A stretch of DNA of 34,993 nt, from assembly GCA_027420455.1 (NCBI GenBank), contig DAIBJA010000059.1, positions 1 to 34,993 on the forward strand, in the 5' to 3' direction. Source of the stretch: Clostridia bacterium. GTDB taxonomy: Bacteria > Bacillota > Sulfobacillia > JAJZYS01 > JAJYTV01. The translations under genes were made by a program, and so were the position numbers. How positions within the stretch are numbered: position 1 is the first letter of the stretch; every line of letters begins with the position of its first letter. This document shows, one piece after another, positions 3,234-14,180 of the stretch. Below the pieces are notes generated by a model. The model was not told the origin of the DNA and searched no databases. It saw only the letters and a list, made by a program, of their open reading frames with translations.

Positions 3234-4046
3234 TCAATCCGCGTCCTCGTGTCCGTCCGACGCGCCGGGCGAGGACTGTGCTTCCAGCTCGGTTAGCAGC
3301 TGCATGCAGACGCCCAAGATGCCCGAAGCCTTCTCGACCGCCTGCCGAGCCTGTTCTGCGGTGTGCCGTTCGCCAGGGACCCCGCCTGGCCAAGCGTCTG
3401 GGTACCTGGTGGAAATGTAGAAGGAATCGAGCAGCGTGGCGTCCTGCATGGCGATCAAGTCCCTCAGAGCTTGAGAGGATTGGAGGTTGCCCATGATGTC
3501 GTGAGACCTCTTGTAATCGCCCGCCTCGGCGATGGAAAGCGACTCTGTCGCCTTTTCGGCAGCCTGCTGGCTAAAAATACAGGCGGCGTACGGATGGGTT
3601 GCAACGTTATCCACTGCAGTTTGCAGGTCTAGGGCTGCCTGCGCAAGCCAGCGTTTGGCCTCATCGAGGTCGCTCGTACAAGACACACCTTTACCTGACA
3701 TCTCACTGCTGACGAAGTGGCGCGTGGCGCAGAGTTCATCCCATTCTTCAGGGGTGTAGATCAGGAGATCTGTTCGCACCACGGGTTGCAACTCAGCCAG
3801 CGCCCGTGCTGTGCGGATGTGGAAAGGCACTCCCCGAGCGGCCTCGGAGATGGCGACGAGATCCAGGTCGCTGCTGAAAGAATCCCGTCCCTGGGCGACG
3901 GACCCGAACAGGATGACCTTTGAGGCTCCGCGTTGCGAGAGAGCGACGGCGAGTCTCTCGGCTTCGCGCCGATGCGCCGCACGGGCAGCCGCGAGTCTGT
4001 GGCGGTATGACCGCACCACAGGATCCAAAGGGCTGCTCGAGGTCAC
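3234..4046 (-). CDS. Fused MNT nucleotidyltransferase-HEPN protein
   Basis: About 270 residues. I choose the GTG at 4046-4044 because GGGAGGG lies 6 nt upstream (complement of 4053-4059); a TTG ten codons further upstream has no such site. Residues about 38-95 form a minimal nucleotidyltransferase with the exact GS-x10-D-x-D signature (G48, S49, D60, D62) and a third Asp in 'RTDLLIY' (D93), so the polymerase-beta-type active site looks intact. Residues about 127-255 are a HEPN helical domain with 'QQAAEKATESL' and 'KRSHDI', resembling the COG1895 type. The canonical R-x4-6-H RNase motif is not evident. MNT and HEPN proteins usually form two-gene toxin-antitoxin pairs in which MNT modifies and silences HEPN; here both are in one chain. 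The role as a toxin, an antitoxin or a nucleotide transferase acting on another target is inference. The gene is monocistronic and convergent with the SLH gene. Confidence 0.8.
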   Translation of the reverse strand: MTSSSPLDPVVRSYRHRLAAARAAHRREAERLAVALSQRGASKVILFGSVAQGRDSFSSDLDLVAISEAARGVPFHIRTARALAELQPVVRTDLLIYTPEEWDELCATRHFVSSEMSGKGVSCTSDLDEAKRWLAQAALDLQTAVDNVATHPYAACIFSQQAAEKATESLSIAEAGDYKRSHDIMGNLQSSQALRDLIAMQDATLLDSFYISTRYPDAWPGGVPGERHTAEQARQAVEKASGILGVCMQLLTELEAQSSPGASDGHEDAD

Positions 4047-4825
4047 TGCGATCCCTCCCGATCCTAGTTGTACCAATTACACTCCGTCGTCACAGGGGTC
4101 AGCATGCGCGCGGCATACGTCCGTACCGCGGCATGCCTGCACGGCAAAACAGCGGGACAACGGACATCGGAGTAGCGTCGGCGGCCGGCCGACACGCTGA
4201 TGCCATGGGGTCAGAAGGGGCGGGCACCTGGTCTCAAACTCCGAGGCGCCATTCGAGTGACCGATGAGATGCGGAGGCATCGCGTGAGCCGACGGGTGGC
4301 CGATACGCGGCCCGTGCGATCTGGCGGACGCGAGTTCTTGTGTCACATTCGCAAGCAGCGGCACACCAGCGGCAGGGGTCTTGGTAGCTTATGGCCTTGG
4401 TTCCGGCGCGATAGGCGTCGAGAGTGCCGCGCCAGCCGAGGGAGCCCAGTGCGTGCCCAGGTTCATCGGCGCTCTGGTGCGTAGAAACGCGCGGTCGCCC
4501 GCGTCCGCCACTTGCGCCGACGACGTCCGCACGCCAGCCTTCCTGGAGAGGAAGGCGAAGTGCTCCGATCTGGCCACCCAGAGGTATGCGAGCAGGTCGG
4601 CGAGGTCGAAGAAAACCGCCCGCAGCCGGTGCTTGGGGATCAGAGCCGCCCGTAATCCACGCCCACGCCCGCTCGGCCCGAACAGGGGAGAGACACCCAC
4701 CATTGCGGGTCCCAGCCGTCGGCGCGTGGTTCCCTGCGTCCTCGGGCCCAGCGCCGCGCCATAGGCTCACGCGGTGAGGTTATCCGTTCACGGCTCGCTG
4801 CGGGAGAACATTACGCCTGTACCAC
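4047..4825. other. Intergenic region, no supported gene
   Basis: About 780 bp. Several overlapping open frames exist on both strands (for example 4234-4770 and 4389-4703, minus), but all are Arg/Pro/Ala-rich, mutually overlapping, and without a ribosome binding site or a recognisable domain. It may hold a decayed gene or the promoter of the downstream leader; I see nothing specific. Confidence 0.5.
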
Positions 4826-4859
4826 GGCTCCGGGAAAATCCCCCGGGGCCAAAGTTTTT
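4826..4859 (+). terminator. Terminator-like hairpin with T5 tract
   Basis: GGCTCCGGG (4826-4834) pairs with CCCGGGGCC (4842-4850), 9 bp with one G-U, followed within 4 nt by TTTTT (4855-4859). No plus-strand gene ends here, so it either ends an unseen short transcript or is the first of two attenuator-like hairpins upstream of the giant adhesin gene. Confidence 0.5.
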
Positions 4860-5030
4860 GTTGGCCAAGTCCTGGCCGACATCACCGCCCACTGCTCCGC
4901 ATACATGTGGGATCGCCGGCACTATGCCAATGGCAGCGCACGGGAGGTGGGCGTGGCCGAAGCTTCGGCAAGGTCGGCGCGGCGTGCGGCGGCACTTCAA
5001 CGGTTCGGGCGCCCGCAACGGCAGATGCCA

Positions 5031-5147
5031 CCACGGGAGCCGAGATTCGATGACACGGGTTCCGGGCATCGAAGACGGGCTCGCGCGTGGCGACGGGGAC
5101 ATCGGAATATGGAGCCTACGGGAGGCCTTCTTTCCGCGGCTTTTTTG
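5031..5147 (+). ncRNA. Structured 5' leader with attenuator-like hairpin
   Basis: Nested pairing is visible: CCACG (5031-5035) with CGTGG (5086-5090); GAGCC (5037-5041) with GGCTC (5078-5082); and TTCGATG (5046-5052) with CATCGAA (5067-5073). About 20 nt downstream, AGCC plus CGGGA (5113-5123) pairs with TTCCG plus GGCT (5132-5141) and runs straight into TTTTT (5142-5146), an intrinsic-terminator geometry. The adhesin start codon is about 50 nt further on. This aptamer-then-terminator order is typical of transcription-attenuating riboswitches. I could not match it to a known class; the conserved CAAAG core of c-di-GMP-I riboswitches is absent. The function is inference. Confidence 0.4.
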
Positions 5148-5198
5148 TTTCGGCGTGCTTCGCCACGCCGCGCGAGTCGAGGAGGTCAGGAAGGAGCA

Positions 5199-8100
5199 GT
5201 GTCTAGGCAGCGGCTCCCGGTCGCCAAGAGAGTCCTCGGGGGTCTCTTGGGAGCTGTATTGACGGTGGCCAGCTTCGCAAGCGTGTTCACATTCGCGGCT
5301 CGCGCCCCCTCCGCGGCGGCGGCCGCGGCCAACGAGACGCGCGGCGGTTTCGTGGCGCAGCTCGGTCAGGCCCTATGCCTTGTCGCGGATACAGGCGCGG
5401 CCCAGAAGTACTCGGACGTATCGCCGGGCGATCCAAACTTCGGAGCGATCATGTCGGCGAGCGCGCAAGGTTGGATTTCGGGTTACCCGAACGGCACGTT
5501 CGAGCCCGACGGCACCCTGACGCGCGAGCAGATGGTCAAGGTCGAGGTCATCGCCCTTGGACTCGGGTCGCAGGCGGCAGCCTTGAGCGGTCAGGCGCCG
5601 GATTACAGCGACGCGACTTCCATCGGCCGCTGGGCTTGGGGTTTCGTCAACGAAGCGACGGCCATCGGCATCGTGCACGGCTTTGTGGACGGCAGCTTCG
5701 GGCCGACCGAAACGTTCACGACGTCCGAGGCGACCGACGCGCTCGGTGAGCTGACAGCCTACCTTGCGGCACATGACCAGCCGGTCGTGACCGCCGTGAC
5801 GCCGGGCAGCGGAGCTGCGGGCGGTACGGTGGCCGTGAGCGGCAGCGGCTTCTGCGGAGCGAGCGGCGTGGCCTTCGGGTCCCTGTCCGCTGCTTCGTTC
5901 GTCGTCCAATCGACGAGTTCCCTGACGGCGGTCGCGCCGAGCGGCAGCGGCACGGTCGATCTCACCGTGACGACGGCCAAGGGCACGAGCGCCAAGGGGA
6001 GCCCGGACCTGTTCTCCTACACCACACCGCCACCCCCGCCCCCTCCTCCCCCTCCACCTCCGCCACACATCACGAGCTACAGTGTGCAAGCCGTCGCAAG
6101 CCTGCAGGCCATCACGGTGCCCGCGGGTACCGCGATCGGATCACTGGCGTTGCCCACCACGGTCGGGGTGACGCTCAGCGGCGGCGCATCGCAGAACCTC
6201 GGCGTGACCTGGAACGGCGGGACCCCGGCGTATGACGGCAACGCCGCGGGTACCTACACCTTCACTGGGACCTTGACGCTGCCGTCCAACGTAACGAACC
6301 CGAGCAACCTGACGGCGGCGCAGAACGTCGTCGTGCAGGCGGGCCCGCCGGCCGCGGCGACGAGCAGCCTCACCGGACCTGCATCCGCGGTCACGGCGGG
6401 CGACAGCGCCACGTACACCCTGGTCCTGAAGGACCAGTACAGGAACCCCATCGCGGGGCTGGCCGGCCAAATCGCCCTGACACAGACGGGAGCCGGTTCT
6501 GGCGACGTCAGCTTCGGGGCGGTGACCGAAACCGCGACGAACGGCACCTACACCTTCACGGCCACCGACGATCTGGCGGAGACGTTCACCGTCCACGCGA
6601 CCGTGGCGGGTCTCTCGCTGGCCGCGTCGCCGGAAACGGTGACCCCCGCCGCGGCGAGCAAGCTCGTGATCGCGAGGGAGCCCTCCACGACCGCGGCCGG
6701 CGCCCTGACAACCCAACCCGTGGTCGACGTGACGGACCAGTACGGCAACGTGGCGGCCACGGATACCTCGACGGTGACGGCCGCACTGACGACTGGCGCG
6801 GGCAGCCTCGGTGGAACGACCGCGGCGACCGTGACGGCCGGCGTCGCCAGCTTCAAGAACCTCAGCATCGACACGGCGGCCCAGGGGGACGTCCTGACGT
6901 TCACGGACGGCAGCCTGACCCCGGCGGTCAGTCAGCCCTTCGACGTGAACCCGGGTGGCCCGTCGGCCAAGCACAGCACGCTCACCGGGCCTGCAGCCGC
7001 GGTTACGGCGGGCGACAGCGCCACGTACACCCTGGTGCTCGCAGACAGGCACGACAACCCGCTGACCGGACTTGCCGGCCAGATCACGCTCGGGCAGGCG
7101 GGCGCCGCCACGGGCGACGTCAGCTTCAGCAGCGTGACCGAGACATCGACCCCTGGCACCTATACCTTCACCGCGACCGACAACACGGCGGAGCACTTCA
7201 CGGTCTCGGCGACCGCGGAAGGCCTGACGCTCACGGCGGCGGAAGAGACCGTGGCGCCCGCCTCTGCGAGCAAGCTCGTGATCGCCGTAGAGCCCTCGAC
7301 GACCGCGGCCGGCGTCCTGACGACCCAGCCCGTGGTCGACGTGACGGACCAGTACGGCAACATCGTAACCACGGACGCCTCGACCGTGACGGCCTCCCTG
7401 ACCACAGGCCTCGGCAGGCTCGTGGGCACGGCCGCGCTGCAGGCGGCGTCCGGCGTTGCCACGTTCCAGAACCTCGAACTCGACCAGGCGGCCAAGGGCG
7501 ACGTCCTGACGTTCACCGATGGCAGCCTGGCCCAGGCGGTCAGTCAGCCGTTCGACGTCCTCCCTGGGGCCCCTTCGCTCACGTACAGCAGCCTCACGGG
7601 CCAGACCTCAGTCCCGGCGGGCGACACCATCACCTACACCCTGGTGCTGGCCGACCGCTACGACAACCCGATCACCGGCGTGGCCGCGCAGATCCAGCTG
7701 CAGGCCCAGGGCGCGCGCCCTGGTGACGTGCAGTTCAACGCCGTCGCCGAGATCGGCACGCCTGGCAGCTACGCGTTCACGGTGTCCGACACCAAGGCGG
7801 AGACCTTCACGGTCGCGGCGACCGTAGGGGGCACCACCGTCAAGGCGGCGCCTGAGACCGTGGTGGCGGCCGCGGCGTCCCAGCTGATAGTCGCGACGGA
7901 GCCTTCCACGACTGTGGACGGCGTTCTCACGACCCAGCCCGTGATCGACATCACGGACGTCTACGGCAACGTGGCGACCACGAACACGTCAACGGTGACA
8001 GCGACCTTGACCACCGGTCCAGGAACGGTGCAAGGGACGACCAGCGTGTCCGCCTCGGCGGGCGTTGTCACCTTCACGAACCTCGAAATCGACCAGGTGG

Positions 8101-11100
8101 GGAAGGGCGACGTCCTGACCTTCACCGACGGCCTCACCACGGTGCAAAGCAGGGCCTTCAACGTTCCGGTGGGACCGGCGTCACCAGCCGCGAGCATCCT
8201 GCGCGGCCCCGCCGCCGAAACCGCCGGCGTCAGCGCCAGCTACCAGCTCACGTTGGACGACGCTTACGGAAACCCGATCGCGAACCTCCCCGGCAGTGCC
8301 TTCACTCCGAGCGAGAGTGGCGTCGCGAACACCGCGGCCTTCAGCTACGGCGCCGTGACGGCGAACCCCGCTTCGCCTGGCACCTACACCTTCACGGTGA
8401 CGGACGACGCGGCGGGGACCTTCACGGTCTCGGTGGCCGTGCAGGGCGTCACGATCCAGGCGAACCCCGAGACAGTGACAGCGGCGGCGGCGAGCCAACT
8501 CGCGATCACCCAGGAGCCCTCGACATCCACGCCCGGCGTCTTGACGACCCAGCCCGTGGTGCAGGTCGAAGACCAGTACGGCAATGTGGTCACGACGGAT
8601 ACGTCCACGGTGACGGCGGCGTTGACGGCCGGTTCAGGCACGCTCGCAGGAACGACGAGCCTGGCTGCCGTGACAGGCGTCGTCACCTTCACGAACCTCG
8701 AAATCGACCAGGCGGGCAAGGGCGACGTCCTGACCTTCACGGATGGACCCAAAACAGCGGTCAGCGCGGCGTTCAACGTGCCGGTGGGCCCGCCTTCGCA
8801 GTCCACCAGCACCTTGCGTGGACCTTCCCAGGAGACCGCCGGCGCGAGCGCCAGCTACCAGCTTGTGCTGGCGGACCGCTACGGCAACCCGATCACGGGC
8901 CTCCTCAGCACCGCCTTTGGCCTGACCGAGACCGGCGTCGCGAACACCGCGGCGGTCAGCTACGGAAAGGTGACGGAGAACCCCAGCTCGCCAGGCACGT
9001 ACACCTTCACGGTGACGGACGATGCGGCGGCGACCTTCCAGGTCTCGGCGGCCGTGCAGGGTGTCACGATCCAGGCGGCCTCTGAGACGGTGACAGCGGC
9101 GGCGGCAAGCCGGCTCGTGATCACCCAAGAGCCCTCGACGACCGCGGCCGGCGTCCTGACGACCCAGCCCGTCGTGCAGGTCGAGGACCGCTACGGCAAC
9201 GTGGTGACAACCGACGCGTCCACGGTGACGGCCTCCCTGACGACCGGCCCCGGTACGCTCAAGGGGACTGTGAGCCTGGCGGCTGTGGCGGGCGTCGCCA
9301 CCTTCACGAACCTCGAAATCGACCAGATGGGGAAGGGCGACGTCCTGACCTTCACCGATGGTGCGCTGACCTCCGCGCCGAGCGCTCCGTTCAACGTCAA
9401 CCCGGGTGCTCCGTCACCGACGTTCAGCACCCTCACCGGACCGACAGCGCCGGTCATGGCGGGCGATGTCGCCACGTATACCCTGGTGCTCGAAGACCAG
9501 TACCAGAACCCGATCACCGGTCTCGCCGGCCAGGTCGCTCCGTTCCAGACGGGAGCCGGCGCGGGCGATGTCAGGTTCGGTGGCGCGGCGGAGACCTCGA
9601 CGCTAGGCACCTACACGTTCACGGCGACCGACAACACTGCGGAAAGCTTCACGGTTTCGGCGACCGCTGAAGGCCTGACGCTCCAGGCGGCCCCTGAGAC
9701 GGTGGCGCCGGCGGCGGCGAGTCGGCTCGTGATCACCCGGCAGCCCTCGACGACCGCGGCCGGCGTCCTGACGACCCAGCCCGTCGTGCAGGTGGAGGAC
9801 CGGTACGGCAACCTGATCACCACGGACGCATCCACGGTGACGGCCTCCCTGACGACCGGCCCCGGTACGCTCAAGGGGACCGTGAGCCTGGCGGCTGTGG
9901 CGGGCATCGCCACCTTCACGAACCTCGAAATCGACCAGGTGGGGCAGGGCGACGTCCTGACCTTCACCGATGGTGCGCTGACTCTCGCGCCAAGCGCTCC
10001 GTTCAACGTCAACCCGGGAGCTCCGTCACCGACGCTCAGCACCCTCACCGGGCCGACATCGCCGATCACGGCGGGCGATGTCGCCACCTACACCCTGGTT
10101 CTCGAAGACCAGTACAAGAACCCGATCACCGGCCTCGCCGGCCAGATCACCATGGCTCAGACCGGGGCCGGCGTGGGCAACGTCAGCTTCGGAGGCGTGG
10201 CGGAGACCTCGACGCTAGGCACCTACACCTTCACGGCGACCGACAACACGGCGGAAAGCTTCACGGTATCGGCGACGGCGGAAGGCGTGACGCTCAAGGC
10301 GGCCAAGGAAACGGTGGTGCCGGCGGCGGCGAGCCAGCTCCGGATCACCACGGAGCCTTCGACAACGGTGGCCGGCGTCCTCACGACCCAGCCCGTGGTC
10401 GAGGTGACGGACCAGTACGGCAACGTTGTCACAACGAACACGTCCATGGTCACGGCCGCTTTGACGACCGGGCCAGGCACCCTGGCCGGCACGACCTCGG
10501 TGAACGCCAAGGCCGGCGTCGCGACCTTCACGAACCTCGAGATCGACAAGGCGGCCCAGGGAGACGTCCTGACCTTCACGACTGGAACCCTGAGTTCCGC
10601 CAGCGCGCCGTTCAACGTCGCTGCGGGCGCGCCGTCGCCAACCTACAGCAGCCTTACGGGGCCGAACGGCGACGTGCAGGCGGGCGTAAGCGCGACCTAT
10701 ACGCTGGTGCTCGCAGACAAGTACGACAACCCGATCACAACGGGCGCGATCTCGCTCAGCGAGACCGGCGCCGCGCTCAGCAGCGATGTGCAGTTCGGGA
10801 GCATCTCCACCACCTCCGTCCTACAGCAGAACGCACCGATCACCTACGTATTCACGGTCACCGACGACAAGGCGGAGACGTTCACCGTCACGGCGACCGA
10901 GGGTGGCGTAGGCATCACGGCCAAGGCCGAGACGGTCGTGGCCGGACCGGCCGCGCAGATCTCCCTTGTCTCGCCGACGAGCGCTAACAGCCTCAAAGCC
11001 TTGGGGTCTGTCGACATCACCTTCAAGGTCACGGATACCTACGGCAACCCCGTCCAAGGAGCGACGGTAACGTTCGGCAAGACCGGCAGCCTAAAGGGGG

Positions 11101-11267
11101 TCATCCGCAAGTCGGCCACCACGGGAGCGGACGGCGAGGTGACCTGCACGTACAATGCCATCCCCGGCGAGGGCCTCGCCCATCACAGCGGCACGGTGAC
11201 GGCCACCATCATGGTGAACGGCGCCCCTGTGACGGCGTCCAGTCCGGAGATCTCCATCAGCGTGTGA
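5199..11267 (+). CDS. Giant SLH/Ig-repeat surface adhesin
   Basis: About 2022 residues from the GTG at 5199, chosen because a clean signal peptide follows at once (basic n-region 'RQRLPVAKR', hydrophobic core, Ala-rich cleavage zone). AAGGAG sits only 2 nt upstream of it, with GGAGG further back at 5181-5185. The frame stays open to 4905, but that stretch overlaps the structured leader and reads as non-coding. Domains: two SLH motifs (about 5400-5760); an IPT/TIG domain (about 5780-6020) resembling the one in the first gene; a 13-residue polyproline linker (about 6030-6063); an Ig-like domain (about 6064-6350); seven full Ig-like units of about 204 residues plus a shorter eighth (6360-about 10960); and a terminal Big_1-like domain. 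Each unit has 'LTGP..VTAGDSATYTLVL.D.Y.NPITGL', then 'QPVV.V.DQYGNVVTTD' and 'GDVLTFTDG'. SLH anchoring and the repeated stalk suggest a long adhesin or S-layer-associated fibre (inference). A 12-bp hairpin follows the stop. Confidence 0.85.
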   Translation: MSRQRLPVAKRVLGGLLGAVLTVASFASVFTFAARAPSAAAAAANETRGGFVAQLGQALCLVADTGAAQKYSDVSPGDPNFGAIMSASAQGWISGYPNGTFEPDGTLTREQMVKVEVIALGLGSQAAALSGQAPDYSDATSIGRWAWGFVNEATAIGIVHGFVDGSFGPTETFTTSEATDALGELTAYLAAHDQPVVTAVTPGSGAAGGTVAVSGSGFCGASGVAFGSLSAASFVVQSTSSLTAVAPSGSGTVDLTVTTAKGTSAKGSPDLFSYTTPPPPPPPPPPPPPHITSYSVQAVASLQAITVPAGTAIGSLALPTTVGVTLSGGASQNLGVTWNGGTPAYDGNAAGTYTFTGTLTLPSNVTNPSNLTAAQNVVVQAGPPAAATSSLTGPASAVTAGDSATYTLVLKDQYRNPIAGLAGQIALTQTGAGSGDVSFGAVTETATNGTYTFTATDDLAETFTVHATVAGLSLAASPETVTPAAASKLVIAREPSTTAAGALTTQPVVDVTDQYGNVAATDTSTVTAALTTGAGSLGGTTAATVTAGVASFKNLSIDTAAQGDVLTFTDGSLTPAVSQPFDVNPGGPSAKHSTLTGPAAAVTAGDSATYTLVLADRHDNPLTGLAGQITLGQAGAATGDVSFSSVTETSTPGTYTFTATDNTAEHFTVSATAEGLTLTAAEETVAPASASKLVIAVEPSTTAAGVLTTQPVVDVTDQYGNIVTTDASTVTASLTTGLGRLVGTAALQAASGVATFQNLELDQAAKGDVLTFTDGSLAQAVSQPFDVLPGAPSLTYSSLTGQTSVPAGDTITYTLVLADRYDNPITGVAAQIQLQAQGARPGDVQFNAVAEIGTPGSYAFTVSDTKAETFTVAATVGGTTVKAAPETVVAAAASQLIVATEPSTTVDGVLTTQPVIDITDVYGNVATTNTSTVTATLTTGPGTVQGTTSVSASAGVVTFTNLEIDQVGKGDVLTFTDGLTTVQSRAFNVPVGPASPAASILRGPAAETAGVSASYQLTLDDAYGNPIANLPGSAFTPSESGVANTAAFSYGAVTANPASPGTYTFTVTDDAAGTFTVSVAVQGVTIQANPETVTAAAASQLAITQEPSTSTPGVLTTQPVVQVEDQYGNVVTTDTSTVTAALTAGSGTLAGTTSLAAVTGVVTFTNLEIDQAGKGDVLTFTDGPKTAVSAAFNVPVGPPSQSTSTLRGPSQETAGASASYQLVLADRYGNPITGLLSTAFGLTETGVANTAAVSYGKVTENPSSPGTYTFTVTDDAAATFQVSAAVQGVTIQAASETVTAAAASRLVITQEPSTTAAGVLTTQPVVQVEDRYGNVVTTDASTVTASLTTGPGTLKGTVSLAAVAGVATFTNLEIDQMGKGDVLTFTDGALTSAPSAPFNVNPGAPSPTFSTLTGPTAPVMAGDVATYTLVLEDQYQNPITGLAGQVAPFQTGAGAGDVRFGGAAETSTLGTYTFTATDNTAESFTVSATAEGLTLQAAPETVAPAAASRLVITRQPSTTAAGVLTTQPVVQVEDRYGNLITTDASTVTASLTTGPGTLKGTVSLAAVAGIATFTNLEIDQVGQGDVLTFTDGALTLAPSAPFNVNPGAPSPTLSTLTGPTSPITAGDVATYTLVLEDQYKNPITGLAGQITMAQTGAGVGNVSFGGVAETSTLGTYTFTATDNTAESFTVSATAEGVTLKAAKETVVPAAASQLRITTEPSTTVAGVLTTQPVVEVTDQYGNVVTTNTSMVTAALTTGPGTLAGTTSVNAKAGVATFTNLEIDKAAQGDVLTFTTGTLSSASAPFNVAAGAPSPTYSSLTGPNGDVQAGVSATYTLVLADKYDNPITTGAISLSETGAALSSDVQFGSISTTSVLQQNAPITYVFTVTDDKAETFTVTATEGGVGITAKAETVVAGPAAQISLVSPTSANSLKALGSVDITFKVTDTYGNPVQGATVTFGKTGSLKGVIRKSATTGADGEVTCTYNAIPGEGLAHHSGTVTATIMVNGAPVTASSPEISISV
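6360..10960 (+). repeat. Tandem 612-bp coding repeats (7 full + 1 partial)
   Basis: Units begin near 6360, 6972, 7584, 8190, 8808, 9423, 10035 and 10644, giving spacings of 606-618 bp. Units 6 and 7 (about 9126-9740 and 9740-10350) share long near-identical DNA stretches, whereas units 4 and 5 form a second subtype with 'RGP..ETAG'. This suggests local duplication and ongoing homogenisation. Confidence 0.85.
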
Positions 11268-12660: not shown

Positions 12661-12681
12661 CCCCGCGGCTAAAGCCGGGGG
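12661..12681. repeat. IS right-end hairpin (after tnpB)
   Basis: CCCC-G-CGGC-TAAA-GCCG-GGGG: an 8-bp stem with one bulged base and a TAAA loop. The tnpB stop codon lies inside this hairpin. It matches the opposite-end copy in architecture and loop. Confidence 0.8.
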
Positions 12682-12800
12682 ATTCTTTCTCGGTCCTGGC
12701 GGGCCGAGCTACACCGCATGTGCGGCGTGTACCGCACACCGATGGGGGACGCCATAGCCCCGACTACTGGGCCTGAGCCCAGATACTTGGCGCGGATGTT
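12661..12800 (-). ncRNA. Possible TnpB guide (reRNA/omega RNA)
   Basis: In studied IS605 elements the TnpB guide RNA is transcribed from the 3' end of tnpB into the right end, with the guide taken from flanking DNA. The tnpB tail plus the right-end hairpin here occupies that position. Boundaries are approximate; no direct sequence proof is available. Confidence 0.3.
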
Positions 12801-13886
12801 GTACGCGCCGACACCGTCTCGGTGGTAGTGGAAGCCGCAGACGCAGCGGTACTCCCGTCCTCTCGGCTTGTGCCGCCGGCCACAGGCCGGGCAGGTCTGC
12901 GACGTGAACGCCTCATCCTGCAGGGCAACCTCCATACCCAAACATTCCGCCTTGTAGGTGAGCATGTGTCGCATCTGGCCGTGCAGCATCTGGTGGATCT
13001 TCTGGTTCGCCGTGTGGCCGTAGTCCAGCCCCTGGCGGATGTCCCGCAAATCGCCGATGACCACCTTATGCACCCCGCTCGCGTGGAGGGTGGAAATTAG
13101 TGTGGTGGTCTCTTTGTGCAGGATGTCCCGGATCTGGTTGTCCAGCTTGCGAAGCTGGCGCTTCTTCGAACGCACGAGACGCCACCAGCGGCGCGAATGC
13201 TTTTGCTTCGTGTCGATCAGGTGGGCGAGTTCCGCCTTGATCTTGTTCTGATAGCGCCGCTTCGACCGCAAGAGCCTGCCGTTTGCGATGACACACCGCC
13301 CGCCGTCGTGGGCGACCGCCAGATGCACCTCCCCGAGGTCCACGCCCGCGACTTCGGATCCCTGCGCGACGGCCCGTGCGGCTCTGACGTAGGTGGCCCG
13401 CAGCTCGTACTGACGGCCGTCCCAGCCCATCTCGACGAGGCGCGGCAGGTCCCACCGCCAAGGCACGCGGAGAGGCTCGTTGCCTTTGCCGTTGGAGAGG
13501 ATGAGTTCGCCATCACGCAGACGGATGGCGCTCGACTTCCATTGCACCTTGAAGTAACGCCTACGTCGATGTGGCGGGCGCGCGTCAGGATCTGTCTTAT
13601 GGCGGGTCCTCCAGGATTGCAAGGATGCGTAGAACGCCTGAACCACCGCGTCGGCGCTGTGGGCGTGCAGGGCGTCCGAGTTGTGCCAGCGCATCGAGCT
13701 GGAGGCTTTGAGCCAGACGCCCTTCCTGCGCACCGTGCGCCAGAACGCGACCACGGTGCGAGAGTAGAGCTCGCCCGCCGCCCGTGCGAGTGCATCCATC
13801 TGATCGCTTCGTCCGATCTTTAGACGGCGGACGACGTGCCGCTCAGACCCGCTTCTGGTTCTCGATGTACTGCTTGACCACGGCAA
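12669..13886 (-). CDS. tnpB: TnpB-type RNA-guided nuclease (IS605 OrfB)
   Basis: About 405 residues from a TTG at 13886 that has GGAGGTG exactly 6 nt upstream (complement of 13893-13899). The next start, ATG 13799, would cut into the conserved N-terminus, and there is none between the tnpA stop and the conserved 'VVRRLKIGR'. RuvC-I is 'AGVDLGEVHLAVA' (D183) and RuvC-III is 'HYHRDGVGAYNI' (D357). The zinc ribbon lies between them, C332-x2-C335 and C348-x-C350. At RuvC-II the usual 'IEDL' reads 'VVIGDLRDIRQG', so the common catalytic Glu is Gly (about residue 278). TnpB proteins cut DNA next to a TAM under guidance of an RNA from the element end, which favours retention of the element. The gene overlaps tnpA by 44 nt and ends inside the right-end hairpin. 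It appears full length. Confidence 0.88.
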   Translation of the reverse strand: MPWSSSTSRTRSGSERHVVRRLKIGRSDQMDALARAAGELYSRTVVAFWRTVRRKGVWLKASSSMRWHNSDALHAHSADAVVQAFYASLQSWRTRHKTDPDARPPHRRRRYFKVQWKSSAIRLRDGELILSNGKGNEPLRVPWRWDLPRLVEMGWDGRQYELRATYVRAARAVAQGSEVAGVDLGEVHLAVAHDGGRCVIANGRLLRSKRRYQNKIKAELAHLIDTKQKHSRRWWRLVRSKKRQLRKLDNQIRDILHKETTTLISTLHASGVHKVVIGDLRDIRQGLDYGHTANQKIHQMLHGQMRHMLTYKAECLGMEVALQDEAFTSQTCPACGRRHKPRGREYRCVCGFHYHRDGVGAYNIRAKYLGSGPVVGAMASPIGVRYTPHMRCSSARQDRERIPRL

Positions 13887-14180
13887 GCGGAACACCTCCG
13901 ACTGTGGCCACGAAGTAGCTGTTGGTCCAAAGCGTCGGGAGACGCTTTTTAAGCCACGGAAACTCTTCACGCAGCAGCCGGGACGATCGGCCTTTGAGCA
14001 GCTTGATCAAGCGGTGCATTCCGAACTGCGGGTCGACATCGACCAGCAGATGCACGTGGTCCGGCATCACCTCCATTTCGATGATCTCAGCTCGCAGATC
14101 TGCAGCGGATAGCGCCAACACCTCCTTCAGTACTTGCAGGAGTAGACGACGTTGCGGTTGGACTTGAACTGCCGCTCCAT
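13843..14180 (-). pseudogene. tnpA: IS200/IS605 TnpA (Y1 transposase), internal deletion and frameshift
   Basis: The C-terminal two-thirds is well conserved: 'LRAEIIEMEVMPDHVHLLVDVDP' contains the HUH motif (HVH), 'LKGRSSRLLREEFPWL' and 'LPTLWTNSYFVATVGG' follow, and 'KQYIENQ' carries the catalytic Tyr. The N-terminus is wrong in this frame. In the neighbouring frame the ATG at 14180 gives 'MERQFKSNRNVVYSCKY' and then a stop (14127-14129). 'VVYSCKY' is the family's normal first strand, usually followed by 'HVVWCPKYRR' and a short linker before '.LKE'. That stretch is missing and the frames do not join, so a deletion of about 60 nt, not divisible by three, has fused the two parts. An alternative TTG at 14187 would give a 114-residue protein lacking the native N-terminus, probably inactive. 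Confidence 0.8.

Follow-up and report, generated by a model that had tools for sequence, protein, structure and literature searches.

The window, that is the whole stretch of 34,993 nucleotides analysed here, is contig C42 of a genome (G000) that comprises 87 contigs and is 76.7% complete. Its plus strand carries a gene for a giant adhesin, preceded by a leader with several predicted hairpins (Table 1). The nearest relative with the same adhesin gene is G002 ('Bacillota bacterium HSP1.bin35'), in which the orthologue lies on contig C51 (JAJZAT010000035.1) and the leader is present as well. On its 5' side the leader adjoins a divergent intergenic region. On the minus strand at about 4300-4645 there is a degenerate HAD-like hydrolase gene, broken in the window and with a longer open stretch in G002, its family being assigned by sequence motif, without a Pfam match. 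Another minus-strand gene (3234-4076) encodes nucleotidyltransferase and HEPN domains on a single chain, and downstream of the adhesin, likewise on the minus strand (12669-13970), lies a gene for an IS605 OrfB / TnpB-type protein with a Cas12f1-like TNB domain. No known phage DNA was found. The adhesin body contains long internal repeats at window positions 6363-10738, where many offset alignments with G002 reach 68-75% identity.

Table 1. Features of the adhesin leader and gene, in window coordinates
Feature	Coordinates	Strand	Basis and remarks
GC-rich palindromic hairpin	4826..4850	+	Divergent intergenic region; terminator-like in the window, AAAGTTTTTG comes next
Three-helix nested stem	5031..5090	+	Predicted fold; unconserved in the G002 orthologue
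5' arm (GGCTCGCG) of a long-range helix with CGCGAGTC at 5171-5178	5078..5085	+	MFE folds of the window and G002 leaders
88-nt block, core of the conserved leader	5092..5179	+	88/88 identical, G000 vs G002 alignment
Intrinsic-terminator-like hairpin, GAGCC-TA-CGGGAGG-CCTT-CTTTCCG-C-GGC + T6	5112..5146	+	Consensus scan and fold; 36/36 identical in G002
Second hairpin, CGGCGTG-CTTCGC-CACGCCG	5151..5170	+	Between T run and Shine-Dalgarno; identical in G002
Shine-Dalgarno, AGGAGGT	5180..5186	+	Sequence; GGGAGGT in G002
Giant adhesin CDS	5199..11267	+	Signal peptide, SLH, Big, invasin-D3 repeats (Pfam); start GTG 5199

The reading frame of the adhesin is open in the window back to ATG 4905, while in G002 the same frame is stopped by a TAA four codons before the GTG. 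Because of this in-frame stop we take GTG 5199 as the start of the adhesin, and 5092-5198 as leader at least in the orthologue. The GTG stands behind the Shine-Dalgarno, 52 nt after the T run of the terminator-like hairpin, as the original prediction had it (about 50 nt past the hairpin). ATG 4905 and ATG 5109 were considered as true starts and rejected, the frame being closed by the TAA in G002. A relaxed scan limited to the sigma-70 consensus detected no promoter with at least 8 of 12 consensus bases within 4640-5199, so that transcription starting downstream of the hairpin but before the GTG is unsupported; nor did a stricter sigma-70 scan of 4000-6000 find one.

The terminator-like hairpin at 5112-5146 has a predicted energy of -12.2 kcal/mol, matched by 37 of 500 shuffles, and ends in six T (5141-5146), one more than had been predicted. 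With 2 terminator-like sites in the consensus scan against a chance expectation of 1.4 +/- 1.1, the hairpin taken alone is within chance. A further terminator-like hairpin had been expected near 4826 and does occur there (-19.8 kcal/mol; 1/500 shuffles as good). G002 forms a hairpin of -21.2 kcal/mol at the same position, but there it is followed by GAATTTATC, and the T run is thus unconserved. The nested stem likewise exists as predicted, with an MFE of -29.9 kcal/mol (z -3.4; 3/500 dinucleotide shuffles equally stable). Among 60-nt windows taken from both strands of the 35 kb sequence, however, 133 of 3494 are at least as stable, so such a stem is no rarity in this GC-rich DNA.

Whether the nested stem appears depends on the stretch folded. 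It is part of the MFE fold of 5020-5147 and missing from that of 5015-5198, where it is replaced by pairing of 5078-5094 with 5161-5178. The long-range helix 5078-5085/5171-5178 competes with the nested stem, which uses GAGCC at 5037-5041, and its arms are identical in the window and G002, hence it yields no covariation signal. For both species the prediction folds all of the block 5078-5178 into a single long, imperfect hairpin just before the Shine-Dalgarno; compared with shuffles its stability corresponds to z -2.8 in the window and z -0.35 in G002. Within this block GGCTC 5078-5082 has three possible partners, 5037-5041, the terminator 5' arm GAGCC at 5112-5116, and 5174-5178, of which only the latter two are kept in G002.

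Conservation between the two species is distributed unevenly along the leader. Identity amounts to 57.6% at 4946-5030 and 62.5% at 5031-5090, then to 95% at 5091-5111, 100% at 5112-5147 and 94% at 5148-5198. Past 5198 the start of the signal-peptide/SLH region has about 86%, and most of the adhesin body 94-100%, with tracts at 98-100%. The identity of the block begins abruptly at 5092; only 3 of the 107 positions of 5092-5198 differ, and the region upstream of the block is 58-75% identical. The adjacent 300 nt of signal-peptide/SLH coding sequence have changes at 28 of 100 third codon positions. Conservation thus extends over 5092-5179 in G002 and leaves out the nested stem, whose 5' arm (the GGGAGCC side) is deleted in G002, so that its helices are unformed and another fold is predicted. 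Judged from this alignment, the conserved unit is the terminator-like hairpin together with the second hairpin and the Shine-Dalgarno region. Its helices show zero substitutions between the two copies, and the nested stem is lost, not compensated; no covariation is measurable because there are only two near-identical copies of the leader.

Beyond this species pair the leader did not recur. A search with the leader DNA through the 41 relatives, the family and the class (154 genomes) returned G002 only, the other matches being short and GC-rich, and none of the other 152 genomes examined from the class contains the block. A contig scan with the adhesin N-terminus hit the G002 contig only. A covariance model trained on both copies of the block recovered its two sources and no convincing third copy; its best extra matches (G009, G006) were discarded, as they lie inside the coding sequence of ftsH, a gene named here by sequence, not by family search. 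Neither the nearest paralogue (G000:C77) nor a relative from G003 (G003:C377) has the block in its leader, and both leaders align with that of the window no better than shuffles. Rfam gave 0 matches in the window at the gathering cut-off, with no cis-regulatory family scoring above it in the leader, and an E-value scan of 4600-5300 gave a chance match to snoZ6 only; as positive controls from related loci, the same tool recovered a SAM riboswitch and riboswitches of the c-di-GMP-I type. That the original prediction could not assign the leader to a known class is in accordance with this.

Genuine riboswitches of the same family provide a control for how such elements are conserved. All 10 genomes of the family examined carry c-di-GMP-I riboswitches, 2-7 per genome, among them copies before SLH genes (L084, L085, L101) and before genes of Flp-type pilins (L083 and similar), a label qualified by a Flp_Fap score below the Pfam cut-off in the single pilin scanned. 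Loci with such a riboswitch directly before an SLH or Flp-type pilin gene are L084, L085, L101, L083, L086, L087, L093 and L094. At two c-di-GMP-I loci compared between G000 and G002 the aptamers are 91-95% and the expression platforms 88-94% identical, and the upstream DNA 55-71%. By this measure of sequence identity the supposed aptamer of the window is conserved like upstream DNA, and the terminator module like a platform. Mainly because of this control we reject the riboswitch reading and keep the hairpin module as probably functional. Setting a candidate aptamer against established ones from the same two species thus tells a conserved terminator module apart from a stem that is not conserved, and should be generally useful. 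The window leader resembles c-di-GMP-I riboswitches (RF01051 / RF03167) in being the leader of an SLH gene with a terminator-like hairpin, and resembles their expression platforms in the roughly 50 nt from that hairpin to the Shine-Dalgarno and start; it differs in that no c-di-GMP-I aptamer is detected (cmscan to E = 5) and in that its upstream stem is unconserved.

What, then, is the function of the leader? We tentatively favour a short, structured 5' leader in which the hairpin would attenuate transcription or shape the mRNA end, with no metabolite aptamer. Of the attenuator geometry put forward originally, a conserved terminator-like hairpin about 50 nt before the start of an SLH adhesin stands, and so does a leader untranslated in the adhesin frame in the orthologue. 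A GC-rich hairpin with T6, one element of an attenuator leader, is present and conserved, and the number of such sites is at chance level. The possibly new riboswitch-like RNA of the original prediction would make the nested stem a ligand-binding or regulatory domain, an aptamer upstream of the hairpin as expression platform, in a new class of metabolite riboswitch. The geometry invites this idea, as do the alternative pairings open to GGCTC 5078-5082 with the stem and with the terminator, the few shuffles as stable as the stem, and the c-di-GMP-I riboswitches before SLH genes in the family. Yet an aptamer upstream of its platform should keep both its sequence and its structure, and 5031-5090 does not: its identity and its missing 5' arm in G002 stand against the 91-95% of the c-di-GMP-I aptamers, Rfam recognizes nothing in the leader, no other copy exists in the 154 genomes of the class, and the extra covariance-model matches fall in ftsH. 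We consider a new metabolite riboswitch hardly credible. With two species only and no covariation available, a new class is without positive evidence, and we find no evidence for a small-molecule aptamer in the leader.

Hairpins that do not terminate could also form a constitutive structured 5' UTR, stabilising the long adhesin mRNA or tuning translation start. The single long hairpin predicted directly 5' of the Shine-Dalgarno in both species fits such a role, and a U6 tract behind a stem of moderate strength (-12 kcal/mol) may be a weak terminator. However, six T immediately after the stem are what an intrinsic terminator requires, they are fully conserved, and the long hairpin is in G002 no more stable than shuffles; a constitutive UTR thus appears unlikely, if well within reach. 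Similarly unlikely in our estimate is a leader with no function at all, in which case the identity would mark a short segment recently recombined, converted or transferred along with the adhesin gene, and the hairpins would be chance products of GC-rich sequence. The adhesin body is 94-100% identical over kilobases as against 40-80% for its upstream flank, the terminator count is at chance level, and stable stems are common in the window. It is because the adhesin body is nearly identical between the two species that recombination deserves consideration; but between the block and that body lie 300 nt of about 86% identity, in which 28% of third codon positions have changed, and the block would therefore need a tract of its own ending at the Shine-Dalgarno. 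Finally, the block could be conserved as DNA, as a promoter or operator with a transcription start inside 5092-5147, or as a short uORF coupling translation. Its abrupt onset at 5092 would suit either, and G002 does contain such a uORF (ATG 5109, 26 codons, TAA at the Shine-Dalgarno). In the window, in contrast, the corresponding frame lacks a stop and continues into the adhesin; the uORF is therefore not common to both species, and even the relaxed scan, restricted to the sigma-70 consensus, shows no promoter-like site. Both variants seem improbable.

In the attenuator reading that we favour, the adhesin mRNA would carry a structured 5' leader whose functional part is 5092-5198, comprising the hairpin with its U6 tract, the second hairpin and the Shine-Dalgarno. 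Transcription would start somewhere upstream of the leader, a fraction of transcripts would probably stop near 5147, and the remainder would read through into GTG 5199. Regulation, if it occurs, may act through competition for GGCTC 5078-5082 among the nested stem, the terminator 5' arm and 5174-5178, three partners that would permit refolding. In a bolder version, which we regard as doubtful, the leader would be an attenuator specific to this lineage that gates the giant SLH adhesin of the two species; a protein, or refolding during transcription via the same GGCTC, would control it, with no conserved aptamer involved. Overall, the window leader looks like an ordinary leader, not a new riboswitch, with a terminator-like hairpin that may regulate the adhesin gene. 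If the hairpin attenuates, it would be one more gate on costly surface adhesins in these high-GC Bacillota, beside the c-di-GMP riboswitches of other SLH genes; the window leader opens no new class of regulatory RNA.

Regulation of surface proteins by structured leaders has precedents. C. difficile has c-di-GMP riboswitches in the 5' UTR of surface adhesin mRNA, and structured 5' UTRs exist in S-layer protein mRNAs. The window leader shares with the latter a long hairpin, here a predicted one, just before the Shine-Dalgarno of a gene of surface-layer type; our literature search for structured 5' UTRs of S-layer protein mRNAs gave no direct match. In Bacillus thuringiensis, the c-di-GMP riboswitch Bc2 belongs to the collagen adhesion protein gene cap (PMC4933901). 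Bc2, like the riboswitch proposed for the window, lies in the 5' UTR of an mRNA for a surface adhesin, but for Bc2 and the C. difficile riboswitches both ligand and aptamer are known, whereas none is recognisable in the window leader.

Other SLH genes of the genus (L059, L067, L050, L061, L051, L036, L062, L060, L037) have in common another promoter and another leader, about 165 nt long. This arrangement was found in 6/6 genus genomes examined and in 0/9 other genomes of the order searched. Its two subgroups fold differently and its covariation is weak, the alignment containing duplicate rows, and we therefore make no claim for it. The promoter consists of GCCCAGAWGTCTCCAWCCA followed by a TTGCRA-like -35 and a TACATT -10 element, and the leader carries a GCGCCGC/GGCGGCGC hairpin beside the Shine-Dalgarno.
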